A DNA stretch of 48,031 nt from positions 1 to 48,031 of the forward strand of contig JABWBA010000017.1 in the NCBI GenBank assembly GCA_013360745.1. The letters run 5' to 3'. This DNA is from Chthonomonadales bacterium (GTDB lineage: Bacteria > Armatimonadota > Chthonomonadetes > Chthonomonadales > CAJBBX01). The position numbers and the translations under genes are program-made. This document shows, piece by piece, positions 3,339 to 9,669 of the stretch; position 1 is the stretch's first letter, and each line of letters starts with the position of its first letter. The notes under the pieces were generated by a model. The model was not told the origin of the DNA and ran no database searches. It saw nothing but the letters and a program-made list of their open reading frames with translations.

Positions 3339-5198
3339 ATGCATCCGCCCCATGGGATCAGCGATATCATCGGTGGAAAGTACCGGATCATCAGAGAGAT
3401 CGCCCGGTCGAATGATATCGTCTATGAGGCGGTTGATCAGACCATGGGCCGCAGAATCGCGATTAAGGAGCTGTTGCTTCCGCCCAATCTGACGGGCCTG
3501 GCTCGACGTGAGCGGATTGAGCGTTTCGGACGAGAGGCTCGCGCTGCTGGCAAGCTCTCCCATCCGAACATCGTCACCATCTACGACTTCGGCGAGGACG
3601 GCGGCCGGTACTTTATCGCGATGGAGTACCTCGAAGGCGGCACCCTGCGCGATCGGCTCCAGACAGCCGGGCCGCTGCCTATGGGGGATGTGCTCGGATA
3701 TGCCTATCAGATGCTGGCCGCACTCGCCCATGCGCATGCCAATCGGGTCATCCATCGGGATGTGAAACCCGACAATGTCTATATCCTGCCCGATGGCCTG
3801 ATCAAACTAACCGACTTTGGCATCGCACGGTTGACTGAAGAAGCCTCGCTCACCGGTGATGGCCAGGTGTTCGGGACACCCAGCTATATGTCGCCAGAAC
3901 AGATCGAAGGGCGTACGATCGATACGCGCTCCGATCTCTTCTCCACAGCCATCGTCCTGTACGAAATGTTGACCGGGCATAAGCCCTTCACCGGCGACAG
4001 TGTAGTCAGCATCACCTACGCCATCATGAACGCCCAACCGGCTCCTGCTCACGGCATACCCGAATCGCTCCAATCCGTCCTCACCCGAGGCCTTGCGAAG
4101 TTACCGTCCGCCCGATTCCAAACGGCCGAGGAGATGCGTAAGGCCCTCTCAGACGCGGCCGCCTCCCTGTCCGACGGCAGAACCGATCGGACCCAACATC
4201 AACCGTCAGGCCGATTTCCGCCGCATTCTCTGCGGCCCGATCTCTCGCCACATCCTGGCGTTTCATCGGCGCATCACGGGGCCACACCCACTGCGGCAAC
4301 GTCAGCCTTGCCTCCTCGATATCCTGCTGGCCCGACACCAGCCAGCAACCCGCCGACCCCGGCGACTTCGATGCCTGCTGGGACGGTCAGCGGACCGTTT
4401 GCAGACTGGGGCAATACCGGCCGCCCTGCAGCGTCGGCCCCCGACAGCATGCGGCAGGGATGGAGCGCGCCCGGTCCGCTGCTGAGCGAGCGATCCCGCA
4501 CGTTCCTGGGCTCCGTTGCGATCGGTTTTGTGCTCGCAGCGATCATCCTTGGAGCGACGCTATCGTTTGTCCGATCCTACGAAGAACGCCAGAAATCTGT
4601 CGGAGTTCTTGCGGCGCAATCTACGCTCCGAGAGGCGGAAATGCTCGTCACCCAGGGTCAGCTGCAACAAGCCGCACAACTATATGCTCAGGTACTGCGG
4701 ACGAACGCTGAGACCGCTGAAGGCAGAACCGCACGCTCCAACCTGGCCGAGGTTCGAATGAGGCTCGGCGTTATTGCGGCACAACAAGGAGAGCCCGCTG
4801 AAGCGGAACGCTATTTCAATGAAGTGATCGAACTCTACGACGGCTACCCTGCATCGCTATCGCCCGCCGATATGAGCCGATATCAAAGCGCTCTGGAGAA
4901 CCTCGCAGCCATCCGTATGAATACAGGGCCTTCGGGCGGTACCGACTCATCGCGTAACCGCGATGCCCCAACACAGGGTCCGGATTTAGGCGCCCAGGCC
5001 CTTTCGGCTCGATCTCAAGAGGCCGAGCGCTATCTCGAACAGGGAGATAACATGGAGCTCCAGGGCGATCGTAGATCGGCTCGCGAACTCTGGCAGCGGG
5101 CGGCAGCAGCGGCCCCTGGCACGCCACCGGCCATCGAAGCCAATACCCGCTTGAACAATACCAGGCCCGACTTCGACTCGCACGCGGGTTGGCCATGA
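3339..5198 (+). CDS. Membrane-anchored serine/threonine protein kinase with C-terminal TPR-like repeats
   Basis: The 619-residue protein has an N-terminal Hanks-type kinase (about 14-270): ATP-site Lys43, helix-C Glu66, the HRD loop at 139-141 with Lys143 and Asn146, DFG at 159-161 and SPE at 185-187. Catalysis therefore looks possible. The glycine loop is odd: IREIARSNDIVYEA replaces the usual GxGxxG. A Pro/Ala-rich linker (about 275-385) leads to one membrane helix (about 388-412). Outside the membrane lie helical repeats resembling tetratricopeptides (about 425-510 and 560-610). The stop overlaps the next gene's ATG (ATGA), so the two are probably co-translated. No PASTA domain is present. 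The ligand or substrate is unknown. There is no strong ribosome site at the start, so the N-terminus is slightly uncertain. Confidence 0.9.
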   Translation: MHPPHGISDIIGGKYRIIREIARSNDIVYEAVDQTMGRRIAIKELLLPPNLTGLARRERIERFGREARAAGKLSHPNIVTIYDFGEDGGRYFIAMEYLEGGTLRDRLQTAGPLPMGDVLGYAYQMLAALAHAHANRVIHRDVKPDNVYILPDGLIKLTDFGIARLTEEASLTGDGQVFGTPSYMSPEQIEGRTIDTRSDLFSTAIVLYEMLTGHKPFTGDSVVSITYAIMNAQPAPAHGIPESLQSVLTRGLAKLPSARFQTAEEMRKALSDAAASLSDGRTDRTQHQPSGRFPPHSLRPDLSPHPGVSSAHHGATPTAATSALPPRYPAGPTPASNPPTPATSMPAGTVSGPFADWGNTGRPAASAPDSMRQGWSAPGPLLSERSRTFLGSVAIGFVLAAIILGATLSFVRSYEERQKSVGVLAAQSTLREAEMLVTQGQLQQAAQLYAQVLRTNAETAEGRTARSNLAEVRMRLGVIAAQQGEPAEAERYFNEVIELYDGYPASLSPADMSRYQSALENLAAIRMNTGPSGGTDSSRNRDAPTQGPDLGAQALSARSQEAERYLEQGDNMELQGDRRSARELWQRAAAAAPGTPPAIEANTRLNNTRPDFDSHAGWP

Positions 5199-6265
5199 AC
5201 GATCCTATACCACCTTCCGACGGGAACGCTCTCCCGGAAGAGATCGCAACACTGATCAATCTTGGCTCGCCTGCGGCGTTCAAGGACCTCGAGCGGTTGT
5301 CGTTCTCGACCGATCGTCGTATCCGAAAGGCCGCTCGCCGAGGGCTCTTCATCCTCCAACAGCGGGGACTCCAACCTGAGAGCCTCTCCGAGGATAACTC
5401 TATCCTTGTCGATGCACGGCGCACCGAACCGAAGTCGGAAACTCCGGCAATAGCGCTACTAACACTGGAACGCCCTGCGGGTGATCGCATGTGCGTCGTC
5501 TCACAGGACGAAACCACGACGAGCAGCTGGACTGTCCTACTCTCGGCCTCGCGGGGAATCGTCTCAATTAACAATACGGATATGAGCATTGCCGATGCGC
5601 GCCGTCTACTCACCAAGCCGACGCCGTCCGGCCATATCTGGCCGGTATGCCGCCTACAGGGTACGCAGGTCGCGCAAATCCTTTACCGATATCTCGATAT
5701 CAACGAATCCGCTCGGACGATGATTCCCTTCGGGACACGACGATTGCTTGCCCGATTCGCGCCAATCAAACCAGACTCTCATCTTGAAGCGCCAACACCG
5801 CCTACGATATCGTCGCCTCTCCTCGCAACGGACGCCGGGACGGCACAAGCGCACCTGGAGTCCATACCCGTATGGTCCCTGGGGCTTGGCTCCGAGGCGA
5901 TCGCACAAGCGAGACAAGACCATTCCCGCTTTGAGATGTCAAGGGTTATCCTGCTCCCTTCCACCCAACGTCAACGAGAAGAAGCGTTTTGGAGGGAACT
6001 GGTGGACCGGCTGATTACCTCGGAGGCCCATCAACGGGTGATCCATCAGCTCGAAGACGACGCTGTCGTATATTATTATAGCGGCGATCATGGCAGGGCC
6101 TCACAACTCATGGAGCAGGTCAGCGCAGGTAGGCGGAGCGCTGTGCCTTCGGAATGGCCTCTCCTCCAGGCTGTGGTGCGGGCCACGGTAGCCACGGATT
6201 CCATTGGACAGGGAAATACCGAAGCGCCATCGGGTCCGAGCGCTTCGCGGCACTTGAGGGGCTAA
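5195..6265 (+). CDS. Unknown protein coupled to the Ser/Thr kinase
   Basis: The start is taken as the ATG at 5195, which overlaps the kinase stop in an ATGA arrangement. A TTG two codons earlier is also in frame. The 356-residue product has no signal peptide and no membrane helix. Residues about 15-55 look like a short helical HEAT-like pair (ATLINLGSPAAFKDLERLS, then KAARRGLFILQQ). The middle is mixed alpha/beta, followed by a Pro-rich stretch near residue 195 and a helical region (about 255-325) that resembles a single tetratricopeptide unit (DDAVVYYYSGDHGRASQLM). I recognise no enzyme motif. The tight coupling suggests it works with the kinase, perhaps as substrate or adaptor; this is inference only. 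Confidence 0.8.
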   Translation: MNDPIPPSDGNALPEEIATLINLGSPAAFKDLERLSFSTDRRIRKAARRGLFILQQRGLQPESLSEDNSILVDARRTEPKSETPAIALLTLERPAGDRMCVVSQDETTTSSWTVLLSASRGIVSINNTDMSIADARRLLTKPTPSGHIWPVCRLQGTQVAQILYRYLDINESARTMIPFGTRRLLARFAPIKPDSHLEAPTPPTISSPLLATDAGTAQAHLESIPVWSLGLGSEAIAQARQDHSRFEMSRVILLPSTQRQREEAFWRELVDRLITSEAHQRVIHQLEDDAVVYYYSGDHGRASQLMEQVSAGRRSAVPSEWPLLQAVVRATVATDSIGQGNTEAPSGPSASRHLRG

Positions 6266-6288: not shown

Positions 6289-7155
6289 TCAACGTAATGC
6301 GAAGCCCAGGACGATTAGGATCAGGATTAAACCGGCTGCATAACCGAGCGCGTTCCGTTCTTCCTTACTGTAATGGAATGCGCTCCGGTGTACTGCAAGG
6401 ACGACGACAGCCATGGGCGCTAGTGCAGGCAGCGCCCAGCCAGTCACCATCACCACGAGCATATAGGCGCACAGGGTTAGCATCAACGGGAGTAAGGTGC
6501 GGTTGTACCCATCGTTCATCCCGATATAACGACAGAGAGATGAGACAAAGAAGGCGATAAAGAGGAAGTCCGCGAAGCCGGCAACCGCCATCGGCGCTGC
6601 GCCAGCCGTCGAGCTGGGCAATCGGACGGTCATCGCTTCCGCCAGCTTTTCTGCGGCCGGTGTAGGGTTCGAGAGAACCCGCTGAACCGGGCCGCCCAGT
6701 AACACGGTCCAGATATCGACAAGCGCAAGTACCACGGCGATCGGCGGGATCATATTCAGCGAGCGTACAATCCGAGATAGGAGTACGCCCGCGCCCACGC
6801 CAAAGAGCATGAACACAAGCTCATTCAATCCGGGAACGCGTATCATCCAGACCCACGGAGTTACGAGACGCCCGGCGGCGAACATGATCCTGAGCGGGAT
6901 CACAAGGGCAGCACAGCCGAGAGTGAGGATCAGTGCGCTTTGCACGCGCTGAAGCCGCGCGGCGACCGCCGCCGCGACCCAGACCGAGAGAGCGAGACTC
7001 AGGACCGTAGACAATAGAACGAGCCAGAGGCGTTCCTCTCGGATCCTTGGCGCGATTTGCCAGAACACCATATACGCGATGAGGGCGACGCTCGGGATTG
7101 CGGAGCGTACCGGTCGATTGGATGAATCGGGCTGATTCGGGGATAGGAACATCAT
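6289..7155 (-). CDS. Polytopic membrane protein, possible diverged presenilin/SPP-type intramembrane aspartyl protease
   Basis: The protein is almost entirely hydrophobic, with about nine membrane segments. I chose the ATG at 7155. A GTG at 7200 would extend it by 15 codons but lies inside a strong promoter (7172-7201) of the opposite-strand gene. In the 288-residue form, one segment ends LALVDIW (Asp147), the next contains GFADFLF (Asp196), and two segments on comes LPALAPM (PAL 243-245). That order and spacing match the YD, GxGD and PAL motifs of presenilins and signal peptide peptidases. GFAD and VD are non-canonical, so activity is not assured. It is transcribed alone and converges on the 5195-6265 gene. 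The presence of a membrane-protein gene is sure; the protease idea is inference. Confidence 0.85.
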   Translation of the reverse strand: MMFLSPNQPDSSNRPVRSAIPSVALIAYMVFWQIAPRIREERLWLVLLSTVLSLALSVWVAAAVAARLQRVQSALILTLGCAALVIPLRIMFAAGRLVTPWVWMIRVPGLNELVFMLFGVGAGVLLSRIVRSLNMIPPIAVVLALVDIWTVLLGGPVQRVLSNPTPAAEKLAEAMTVRLPSSTAGAAPMAVAGFADFLFIAFFVSSLCRYIGMNDGYNRTLLPLMLTLCAYMLVVMVTGWALPALAPMAVVVLAVHRSAFHYSKEERNALGYAAGLILILIVLGFALR

Positions 7156-7171: not shown

Positions 7172-7201
7172 TTGACACGATCCGTACGCGTATTGTACAC
7201 T
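7172..7201 (+). promoter_or_regulatory. Sigma-70-type promoter of the ANTAR regulator gene
   Basis: TTGACA (7172-7177) and TACACT (7196-7201) are separated by 18 bases, close to the housekeeping consensus. The expected transcript start is near 7208, and the ribosome site AGGAGG lies before the GTG at 7243. The promoter overlaps the extended N-terminus possible for the minus-strand gene, which favours its internal ATG. Confidence 0.7.
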
Positions 7202-7242: not shown

Positions 7243-7839
7243 GTGACCAGGACATCATCGGACAGCGGACCCTTGCGGATCGTCATCGCAGACGACGAAC
7301 CGATCATACGCCTGGACCTGCAGAACCTACTGGAGAGCCTGGCGTACGAGGTGGTTGCCTCTGTCGGTGACGGAGCGGCCGCGTTGGAGGCGGTGCGTCA
7401 GCTTCTCCCGGACCTTGCAATCCTCGACATCCGCATGCCGGTGATGGATGGGATCGACGTTGCCAGGATTATGCACAAGGAGCGCCTCGCGCCTGTGCTG
7501 ATCATCACCGGTTATCCCGAAGCCGATCTTGTGCATCGCGCCGCCGACGCCGGCGTTTTTTACTATCTGGTGAAGCCCTATAAGCCTGTGGATCTGATGC
7601 CGGCGGTCGAGATCACGCTCAGTCGTTGGAGTGAGTTCATCGCTCGGGCCGACGAGGCCCATGAGCTAGAAGACCGCCTGGAAACGCGAAAATCCGTCGA
7701 TCGAGCCAAGGGCATCCTGATGGATCGATACGGGCTCAAGGAGCAGGAAGCATTCCGACGGATTCAAGTGCAGAGCATGAACACGCGCAAATCCATGCGC
7801 GATATCGCAGAAGCGATCATCATCGCTCACAGCATTTGA
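7243..7839 (+). CDS. Response regulator with ANTAR RNA-binding output domain (antiterminator)
   Basis: The 198-residue protein starts at a GTG behind AGGAGGAG. The receiver domain covers about 11-125, with acidic residues in IADDEP, phospho-acceptor Asp62 (LAILDIRMP), Thr89 and Lys111 (LVKPYKP). The C-terminal helices (about 135-197) carry the ANTAR signature: RKSVDRAKGILMDRYGL, then a helix with EAFRRIQ and ending IAEAII. ANTAR proteins bind paired hairpins in mRNA leaders and prevent termination, as EutV, NasR and AmiR do. The HisKA_2-type kinase 72 bases downstream is the obvious partner, as EutW is to EutV. Target RNAs are not evident in this window. Confidence 0.95.
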   Translation: MTRTSSDSGPLRIVIADDEPIIRLDLQNLLESLAYEVVASVGDGAAALEAVRQLLPDLAILDIRMPVMDGIDVARIMHKERLAPVLIITGYPEADLVHRAADAGVFYYLVKPYKPVDLMPAVEITLSRWSEFIARADEAHELEDRLETRKSVDRAKGILMDRYGLKEQEAFRRIQVQSMNTRKSMRDIAEAIIIAHSI

Positions 7840-7911: not shown

Positions 7912-9669
7912 ATGAAAGCCCGTTTTCGTCTCCGCAGTCCGATCACCTTCCGCTTCAGCGACCCCGTCGGCGAATCGAACCCGGAGGCCCTCCGACAGGA
8001 GATCAATAAGCGCGATCAGGCGTTGAAGGACGCCGAACGGCTCGTTCAGGAACTCCGGAACGAGGCGGACGAGAGTCGTGCCGAAGCCGACGCATTACGA
8101 CGCGTCAGCGAGACAACCGGCTCGGTCTTTGATCTCGAAGATATGCTGCGAGCGACGGTGGACGTCGCGCTTCGGGTTACCAATACCGAATCCTGTCAGG
8201 TCTACTTGCTCGATCGCAAGACCAACGAGCTCGTATTGAGAGGGGCGGACGAAACCGGCAGGAGTATGATCGGCGCGATACGCCTGAAGGTCGGCGAAGG
8301 GGTCACGGGCCTTGCAGCCCAGGAGAGAAAGCCGATTGCGATTAAGCGGGACGCGGCGCACGATCGGCGATTCAAGTACTTTCCTGAGATCCACGAGGAG
8401 GATTACCATAGCATCCTCTCCGTTCCGCTGCTTTACCGCAATCAGATGCTCGGCGTTGTCAATGTCAGAACTCGAGAACCTCACGTCTACACGAGACACC
8501 AGATGCGGCTTCTATCCGGCATCGCCGGTCAGGTCGCAGGGGCGATCGAGAAGGAGCGCCGAGCTCGCCAGCTTGAACGGACTGCCGTCCAGCTCCACAA
8601 GCTCTCTGAGGTTAGTCAGGCCATTATGTCCAACGTGTACCTCGACGATATGCTCTCCATGTTCGTCGACATCACGGCGAACACGATGGGATATACCGTC
8701 TGCACGGTCATGCTCGTAGACCATCAGTCGCAGGAACTCGTCATCAAAGCCACACAGAGCGCGCATCAGGAGTACCTGGGCAAGCCTCCCACGAAGCTGG
8801 GCGAGAGCATCGCTGGCCGAGCGGCTCGCGAGGGCCGCGTCCTTACCGTGACGGATGTGAAGAAACACCCGGACTACAGGTTTCCCGATATCGCCGAACG
8901 AGCCGGTCTGACCTCACTCGCGTCGGTACCCTTGAAGTTCAAGGATGAGGTTCTCGGCGTACTGAACTGCTACACCGAAAGCGTACATGAGTTCACTCGG
9001 GAAGAGCTGGCGATTCTTCAGGCATTGGGCGCTCAAGCAGCGATGGCCATTCAGACCGCGCGCCTGATGCTCAAATCGGCTGTGATTCAAGAGATGCACC
9101 ACCGCGTTAAAAACAGCTTGCAGCAGATCGCGAGCCTCGTGCGCCTCCAGATCCATTATGCCGGTCAGCTAACCGTCGAATCAGCGATGAACGATACGCT
9201 CACCCGCATACTGGCGATCGCCGCCGTTCACGAACTGCTCCTGAGGGACGACCTCGATCGGGTGAGCGTAACGCGCCTTGCGGAGCAGATCCTCAGCGGC
9301 ACGAAACAGAGTGTGGTGCCTCCGGGTAAGACCATTGAAGGCAAGGTCACGGGCCCTGACCTCCGGCTTCCGCTATCCCAGGCGACGACGCTCGCGCTCG
9401 TCCTCAATGAACTTGTCCAGAATGCCGTGGAACACGGTTTTCGAGACATGGTTACCGGCAATATCCATATCGATGTGGTCAAGACCGGCGAAATGGTGAC
9501 CGTTCGGGTTATCAACGACGGCGAACCGCTCAGCGCTGATTTCAATCCATCAACGGAACGCCTCGGTCTAAGGATCGTCACCGACCTTGTGCGCGGATCT
9601 CTGGGCGGCGTCTTTACGATGGAAAACGCCGACGGGATTACCGCAACCGTCACATTCCCCCTCCCTTAG
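7912..9669 (+). CDS. GAF-GAF sensor histidine kinase, HisKA_2 type
   Basis: The protein has 585 residues. A short coiled coil (about 25-66) precedes two GAF domains (about 72-215 and 243-385) that would bind a small ligand or sense a redox or chemical signal. The dimerisation/phosphotransfer region has the HisKA_2 motif EMHHRVKNSLQQIASLVRLQ with the likely phospho-His397. A compact HATPase follows, with its N box near LVLNELVQNAVEHGF and a G box near ERLGLRIV. There is no membrane helix, so it acts in the cytoplasm. HisKA_2 kinases of this build pair with ANTAR regulators, and one lies immediately upstream. The signal is unknown. The ribosome site is weak, so the start is somewhat uncertain. 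Confidence 0.95.
   Translation: MKARFRLRSPITFRFSDPVGESNPEALRQEINKRDQALKDAERLVQELRNEADESRAEADALRRVSETTGSVFDLEDMLRATVDVALRVTNTESCQVYLLDRKTNELVLRGADETGRSMIGAIRLKVGEGVTGLAAQERKPIAIKRDAAHDRRFKYFPEIHEEDYHSILSVPLLYRNQMLGVVNVRTREPHVYTRHQMRLLSGIAGQVAGAIEKERRARQLERTAVQLHKLSEVSQAIMSNVYLDDMLSMFVDITANTMGYTVCTVMLVDHQSQELVIKATQSAHQEYLGKPPTKLGESIAGRAAREGRVLTVTDVKKHPDYRFPDIAERAGLTSLASVPLKFKDEVLGVLNCYTESVHEFTREELAILQALGAQAAMAIQTARLMLKSAVIQEMHHRVKNSLQQIASLVRLQIHYAGQLTVESAMNDTLTRILAIAAVHELLLRDDLDRVSVTRLAEQILSGTKQSVVPPGKTIEGKVTGPDLRLPLSQATTLALVLNELVQNAVEHGFRDMVTGNIHIDVVKTGEMVTVRVINDGEPLSADFNPSTERLGLRIVTDLVRGSLGGVFTMENADGITATVTFPLP

Follow-up and report, generated by a model that had tools for sequence, protein, structure and literature searches.

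Presenilin and signal peptide peptidase (SPP) are enzymes that cleave proteins within membranes. Because presenilin is the Alzheimer's enzyme, proteases of the presenilin type have been studied intensely. Simpler prokaryotic homologues of presenilin have been wanted for work on structure and mechanism (PMC2947513). Human SPP and presenilin can be aligned with one another only over TM1 and TM5–9 (PMC13252537). Substrate-bound presenilin contains TM6a and strands that pair with the substrate (PMC7248309), and the same holds for SPP (PMC13252537). In presenilin-1, alanine is reported to be the sole substitution at the second glycine of the GxGD motif that leaves an active enzyme (PMC3316526). Substitution of the equivalent glycine in human SPP, G264A, causes a mild defect; the substitutions G262A, V223A and Y218A cause strong defects, and L319A a severe one (PMC13252537).

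The protein encoded at positions 6,289 to 7,155 of the window—the whole 48,031-nucleotide stretch of DNA analysed here—is likely to belong to a bacterial family of di-aspartyl intramembrane proteases that has no family model so far and is homologous to presenilin and SPP. It is referred to below as the window protein. Its gene and the codons of its principal residues are as follows:

6289..7155, minus strand: gene of the window protein, a presenilin/SPP-like membrane protein with 288 residues and nine helices (from the open reading frame, its translation, AlphaFold and homologues)
6717..6715, minus strand: codon of Asp147, the proposed first catalytic aspartate, in a hydrophobic-D-x-x-x-V motif (VDIWTV) followed by GGP
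6568..6579, minus strand: codons of GFAD (residues 193–196), with Asp196 as the proposed second catalytic aspartate (from conservation and the PDB profile alignment)
6429..6421, minus strand: codons of the PAL motif (P243-A244-L245, in LPALAPM), conserved and aligned with the PAL of presenilin-1
6358..6360, minus strand: codon of Glu266, an almost invariant residue (E in 104 of 105 members) which starts an extra C-terminal helix

The frame runs on the minus strand from an ATG at 7155 to a stop ending at 6289, with an alternative in-frame GTG start at 7200; the plus strand across the same interval contains 12 stops. Asp147 sits in LALVDIW, and Asp196 (codon 6570..6568, minus strand) in GFADFLF. 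The original prediction, made from the sequence, had counted nine hydrophobic segments with an aspartate in each of two successive ones and PAL two segments further on. The AlphaFold model agrees: it has nine hydrophobic helices (residues 20–37, 43–67, 71–94, 110–127, 133–152, 194–211, 213–238, 245–255 and 264–287), with Asp147 in the fifth, Asp196 in the sixth and PAL just before the short eighth. The predicted spacings were the same on recount, at 49 residues from Asp147 to Asp196 and 47 from Asp196 to PAL.

Conservation was assessed in three successive sets of 49, 81 and 105 homologous sequences. The third was picked so that the most divergent members were represented, and it covers most families of Armatimonadota. 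Overall identity among family members is 20–30%. Asp147, Gly193 and Asp196 are nevertheless invariant in all 103 members of the largest set that cover them, and within PAL, P243 is kept in 100 of 105 and L245 in 98 of 105; the alignment of homologues therefore bears out the original prediction for both aspartates and PAL. V151 is kept in 97 of 103 members, and Glu266 stands in the context R/K-x-E. Conservation of the aspartates, Gly193 and PAL across the 105 sequences indicates that the motifs of the window protein are not due to chance. The altered motifs that had been claimed, VD and GFAD, are present in the window protein, and its relatives alternate GFAD with GxGD. Position 195, the second glycine of GxGD, is alanine in 54 and glycine in 49 of the 103 members and nothing else, with at least four G/A changes on the tree of 81 members. 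The order to which the window protein belongs reads GFAD, whereas canonical GxGD is frequent outside it, as GVGD, GPGD, GIGD and GLGD. The residue preceding the first aspartate may be V, I, M, A, T, F or Y, and tyrosine, giving the canonical YD, occurs only in the Fimbriimonadia-like branch (AYDIFLVLTPLGF). The equivalents of SPP residues G262, V223 and L319 are conserved in the family, and the tyrosine before the first aspartate is usually another hydrophobic residue. The restriction of position 195 to G or A, together with conservation of these equivalents of SPP-critical residues, fits a working active site, with the exception of that tyrosine.

As a single query, the window protein matched nothing in Pfam, NCBIfam or the PDB. 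When the PDB (177,635 sequences) was searched by hmmsearch with the first family alignment, the single match at E-values up to 10 was presenilin-1 (2kr6, E 0.023). Broader alignments retrieved SPPL2a (E 0.0036–0.014), presenilin-1 (0.01–0.09) and presenilin-2 (0.14), at values near the false-positive level: a nicotinic receptor was matched in another region at E about 0.01, and there was one further weak unrelated match. A profile of the Fimbriimonadia-like branch alone gave no match in the PDB. Full-length presenilin-1 aligned with the family in motif order, with VYDLVAVLCPkGP on the Asp147 region, GLGDFIF on Asp196 and PAL on PAL. Asp257 of presenilin-1 is thereby aligned with Asp147, in a stretch that is weak alone, and the GFAD region is aligned with GLGD of presenilin and GFGD of SPPL2a. 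No family member passed the cut-off of the presenilin/SPP models in Pfam or NCBIfam. Sub-threshold Pfam matches reached E 0.059 for PF04258 and E 0.18 for PF01080, and PF01080 is the Pfam family with weak matches from the largest number of members in the broad alignment (three of 58). The archaeal SPP family, PF06550, matched nothing in 61 Armatimonadota genomes, while two archaeal controls were positive.

Comparison of predicted structures points the same way. The AlphaFold model of the window protein, for which 42 homologues were used, has a pLDDT of 89.7 and a pTM of 0.87. A second model, of the L088 relative, which is 28% identical and has a canonical GIGD, has a pLDDT of 94.7 and a pTM of 0.91. 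In Foldseek searches of the PDB the best 13 matches to the window protein are all presenilin or SPPL2a (probability 0.66–1.00, eleven of them at 0.98 or more), and the first unrelated match has a probability of 0.18. The best 14 matches to the L088 model are likewise all from the presenilin family, with the archaeal homologue 4hyg as match 14, and the first unrelated match has a probability of 0.10. A fold unlike that of presenilin, for instance a transporter, would have spoken against the original prediction; what was found in both best sets (13 and 14 matches, TM-scores 0.29–0.44) was the presenilin family. The top Foldseek probability is 1.00, yet across the two models the E-values are 0.01–0.5 and the TM-scores fall below the usual threshold of 0.5. 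Since even SPP and presenilin can be matched to each other over no more than TM1 and TM5–9, modest global fold scores are to be expected for this family. Between its aspartate helices the L088 model contains short amphipathic helices and a beta-hairpin, and these, in a reading of the secondary structure, appear to resemble TM6a and the strands of presenilin and SPP.

Homology of the family to presenilin and SPP is very probable. Polytopic hydrophobic proteins do yield many weak profile matches, such as the nicotinic receptor, and TM-scores below 0.5 would be in line with a transporter or a structural protein of the membrane that is unrelated to presenilin and in which the aspartates and PAL are coincidental; such a protein is nevertheless very unlikely, given the motif conservation across the family and the agreement of both structure searches and three of the four PDB profile searches on presenilin/SPP. 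The A24 peptidases, which lack PAL, share GxGD with the family and are bacterial, as discussed in PMC2947513. The idea that the family is a branch of these type IV prepilin/preflagellin peptidases is the least credible of those considered: the Pfam families listed for the members include no A24 model, neither FlaK nor any prepilin peptidase structure appears in the best 50 Foldseek matches of either model, and the aspartates of the family lie in adjacent helices followed by PAL.

Given homology, the family would be highly likely to be catalytically active as a protease. The alternative is a non-proteolytic relative of presenilin and SPP, which would have kept the fold and its polar residues for binding, chaperoning or ion leak. 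Such a relative could account for GFAD in place of GxGD in the order of the window protein, and the catalytic competence of a fold cannot be judged from sequence alone, but it is unlikely. The aspartates are invariant (103 of 103) in a family that is otherwise only 20–30% identical, and among pseudo-enzymes catalytic residues are usually lost in some branch of the tree. Position 195 moreover switches repeatedly between G and A only, and alanine there is tolerated in presenilin-1 (PMC3316526) and causes a mild defect in SPP (PMC13252537). Because only G or A is tolerated before the second aspartate and alanine is tolerated in these published cases, an active protease appears more likely than an inactive relative. 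The original prediction of a bacterial GxGD-like protease family, or an inactive relative, is thus largely supported by the invariant aspartates and by the direction of the profile and fold searches.

A protein search found homologues in 54 of 61 related genomes, and the family profile detected one in 268 of 291 Armatimonadota genomes, nearly always as one copy per genome. Among the 194 better genomes (completeness at least 90%, contamination at most 5%), 186 have a homologue. When about 85,000 bacterial and archaeal species were scanned with a single nine-residue pattern, 19 relatives were confirmed. Of these, 17 bear the names Armatimonadota/Armatimonadetes or Candidatus Hebobacteria (itself a class of Armatimonadota), and two have the NCBI label Bacillota; none clearly outside Armatimonadota was seen with that pattern in these species. 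No relative was found in viral contigs, and a literature search returned no paper that links Armatimonadota to presenilin or intramembrane proteases. The few near-complete genomes of the phylum that lack the family gene include three of one genus (G043, G056 and G216, 97% complete); it is also missing from two genomes of 1.5 Mb (G152 and G153). One genome carries a tandem duplicate (L099:5038-6918) in which each copy keeps both aspartates. In another, a single 3.4 Mb contig (G015, locus L028), the homologue is split into two frames just before the PAL region, so that either the gene is broken or the sequence contains an error; the genome is otherwise complete.

Two genes of the window next to that of the window protein recur beside the family:

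7243..7839, plus strand: response regulator with an ANTAR domain, divergent from the window protein gene (Pfam Response_reg, ANTAR)
7912..9669, plus strand: GAF/HisKA_2 sensor histidine kinase, adjoining the ANTAR regulator (Pfam)

Of 61 sampled loci, 15 have the ANTAR response regulator near the family gene, mostly next to it and divergent, and 12 keep the kinase; the two form a recurrent neighbour pair across orders. Directly downstream on the same strand, leuS (leucyl-tRNA synthetase, identified by Pfam on one representative) is found in 16 of the 61 loci, from about 12 families (L033, L088, L089, L092, L093, L103 and ten others), often after a gap of only tens of bases. Both sides of this neighbourhood are present together in some loci (L033, L088 and L089), and in Fimbriimonadia-like genomes a glycosyltransferase gene is a neighbour. 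The neighbourhood suggests that the arrangement is old and that the family is expressed together with housekeeping genes; no clue to the substrate was found among the neighbours in the 61 sampled loci. In the window, a 358-residue open reading frame with a TTG start and no Pfam family (5189–6265, plus strand) separates a Ser/Thr kinase-TPR gene from the protease-like gene.

The S49 signal peptide peptidase SppA is absent from the genome of the window protein and was not found over the cut-off in the taxonomic family of that genome (G000–G011). SppA is common elsewhere in the phylum, where it co-occurs with the protease-like family, and the window protein as a simple replacement for SppA is therefore no general explanation. 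Homologues of Site-2 protease occur in all 21 genomes tested.

Counts of lysine and arginine favour a cytoplasmic position for the even-numbered loops in 69 of 81 members, with five against. This bias would place the loop between the aspartates outside, so that the family probably has the orientation of SPP, opposite to that of presenilin. With the N terminus and even loops cytoplasmic and the Asp–Asp loop outside, as the charge distribution suggests, the substrates implied by an SPP-like orientation would be type II (N-in) segments, for example signal-peptide remnants or membrane anchors with the N terminus inside. The short amphipathic helices and strands that lie between the aspartate helices would draw the transmembrane segment to be cut into an extended conformation, and the two aspartates would activate a water molecule within the membrane, beside the PAL turn. 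Near-universal single-copy presence suggests a housekeeping role, which may lie in membrane protein clearance or processing.

The balance tilts somewhat towards the view that the whole phylum carries, as a core single-copy gene, a deep branch of presenilin/SPP: a stand-alone protease whose helix plan is shifted and which has a new glutamate that is conserved. If this is true, it would be evidence that the superfamily arose earlier, or reaches further, than its eukaryotic and archaeal members suggest; the family would add bacteria to the evolution of GxGD intramembrane proteases and would point towards a core process at the membrane in Armatimonadota that is as yet unstudied. The proteins of the family, of about 290 residues, are apparently stand-alone and spread over one bacterial phylum. 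Their natural G/A variants before the catalytic aspartate mirror the presenilin-1 disease mutation G384A.

Among known systems, the A24 type IV prepilin/preflagellin peptidases are likewise GxGD-type di-aspartyl membrane proteases in bacteria, but they have no PAL and a different placement of the aspartates, and the family matches them neither by sequence nor by fold. The archaeal homologue (PF06550; MCMJR1/PSH, 4hyg) is also a prokaryotic, stand-alone, nine-helix protein, with YD, GxGD and PAL. With presenilin (PF01080, A22A) the family has its motifs in register (VYDLVAVLCPkGP, GLGDFIF, PALP) and its top structure matches in common; it differs in its opposite predicted membrane orientation and short Asp–Asp loop, and in the helix differences described below. 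SPP and SPPL proteins (PF04258, MEROPS A22B) share hydrophobic-D-x-x-x-V, GxGD (as Gx[GA]D) and PAL with the family, and SPPL2a is its best PDB profile match. The amphipathic helix and strands between the aspartate helices are also alike, as the predicted orientation would be, and the Asp–Asp spacing is 46 in human SPP (D219–D265, PMC13252537) against 49 in the window protein. The family differs from SPP/SPPL in being bacterial and in having no significant Pfam match.

With A22 as a whole the family has in common the aspartate pair in adjacent helices, the motif at the first aspartate, PAL two helices on, and the fold (at TM-scores of 0.29–0.44). It departs from A22 in strict GxGD (GFAD in the window protein; 49 GxGD and 54 GxAD among 103 members), in Pfam cut-offs and in helix numbering. 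In A22 the first aspartate, the second and PAL fall in the sixth, in the seventh and before the ninth of nine helices, as opposed to the fifth, the sixth and the eighth in the family, which has four helices before the first aspartate instead of five. Behind the short PAL helix the family also has one more helix, at the C terminus; this helix begins with Glu266 and has no counterpart in presenilin or SPP. With motifs as in A22 but outside it in strict GxGD, helix numbering and Pfam cut-offs, the family is therefore called here a new sister family within the presenilin/SPP superfamily, and not a member of A22A or A22B.
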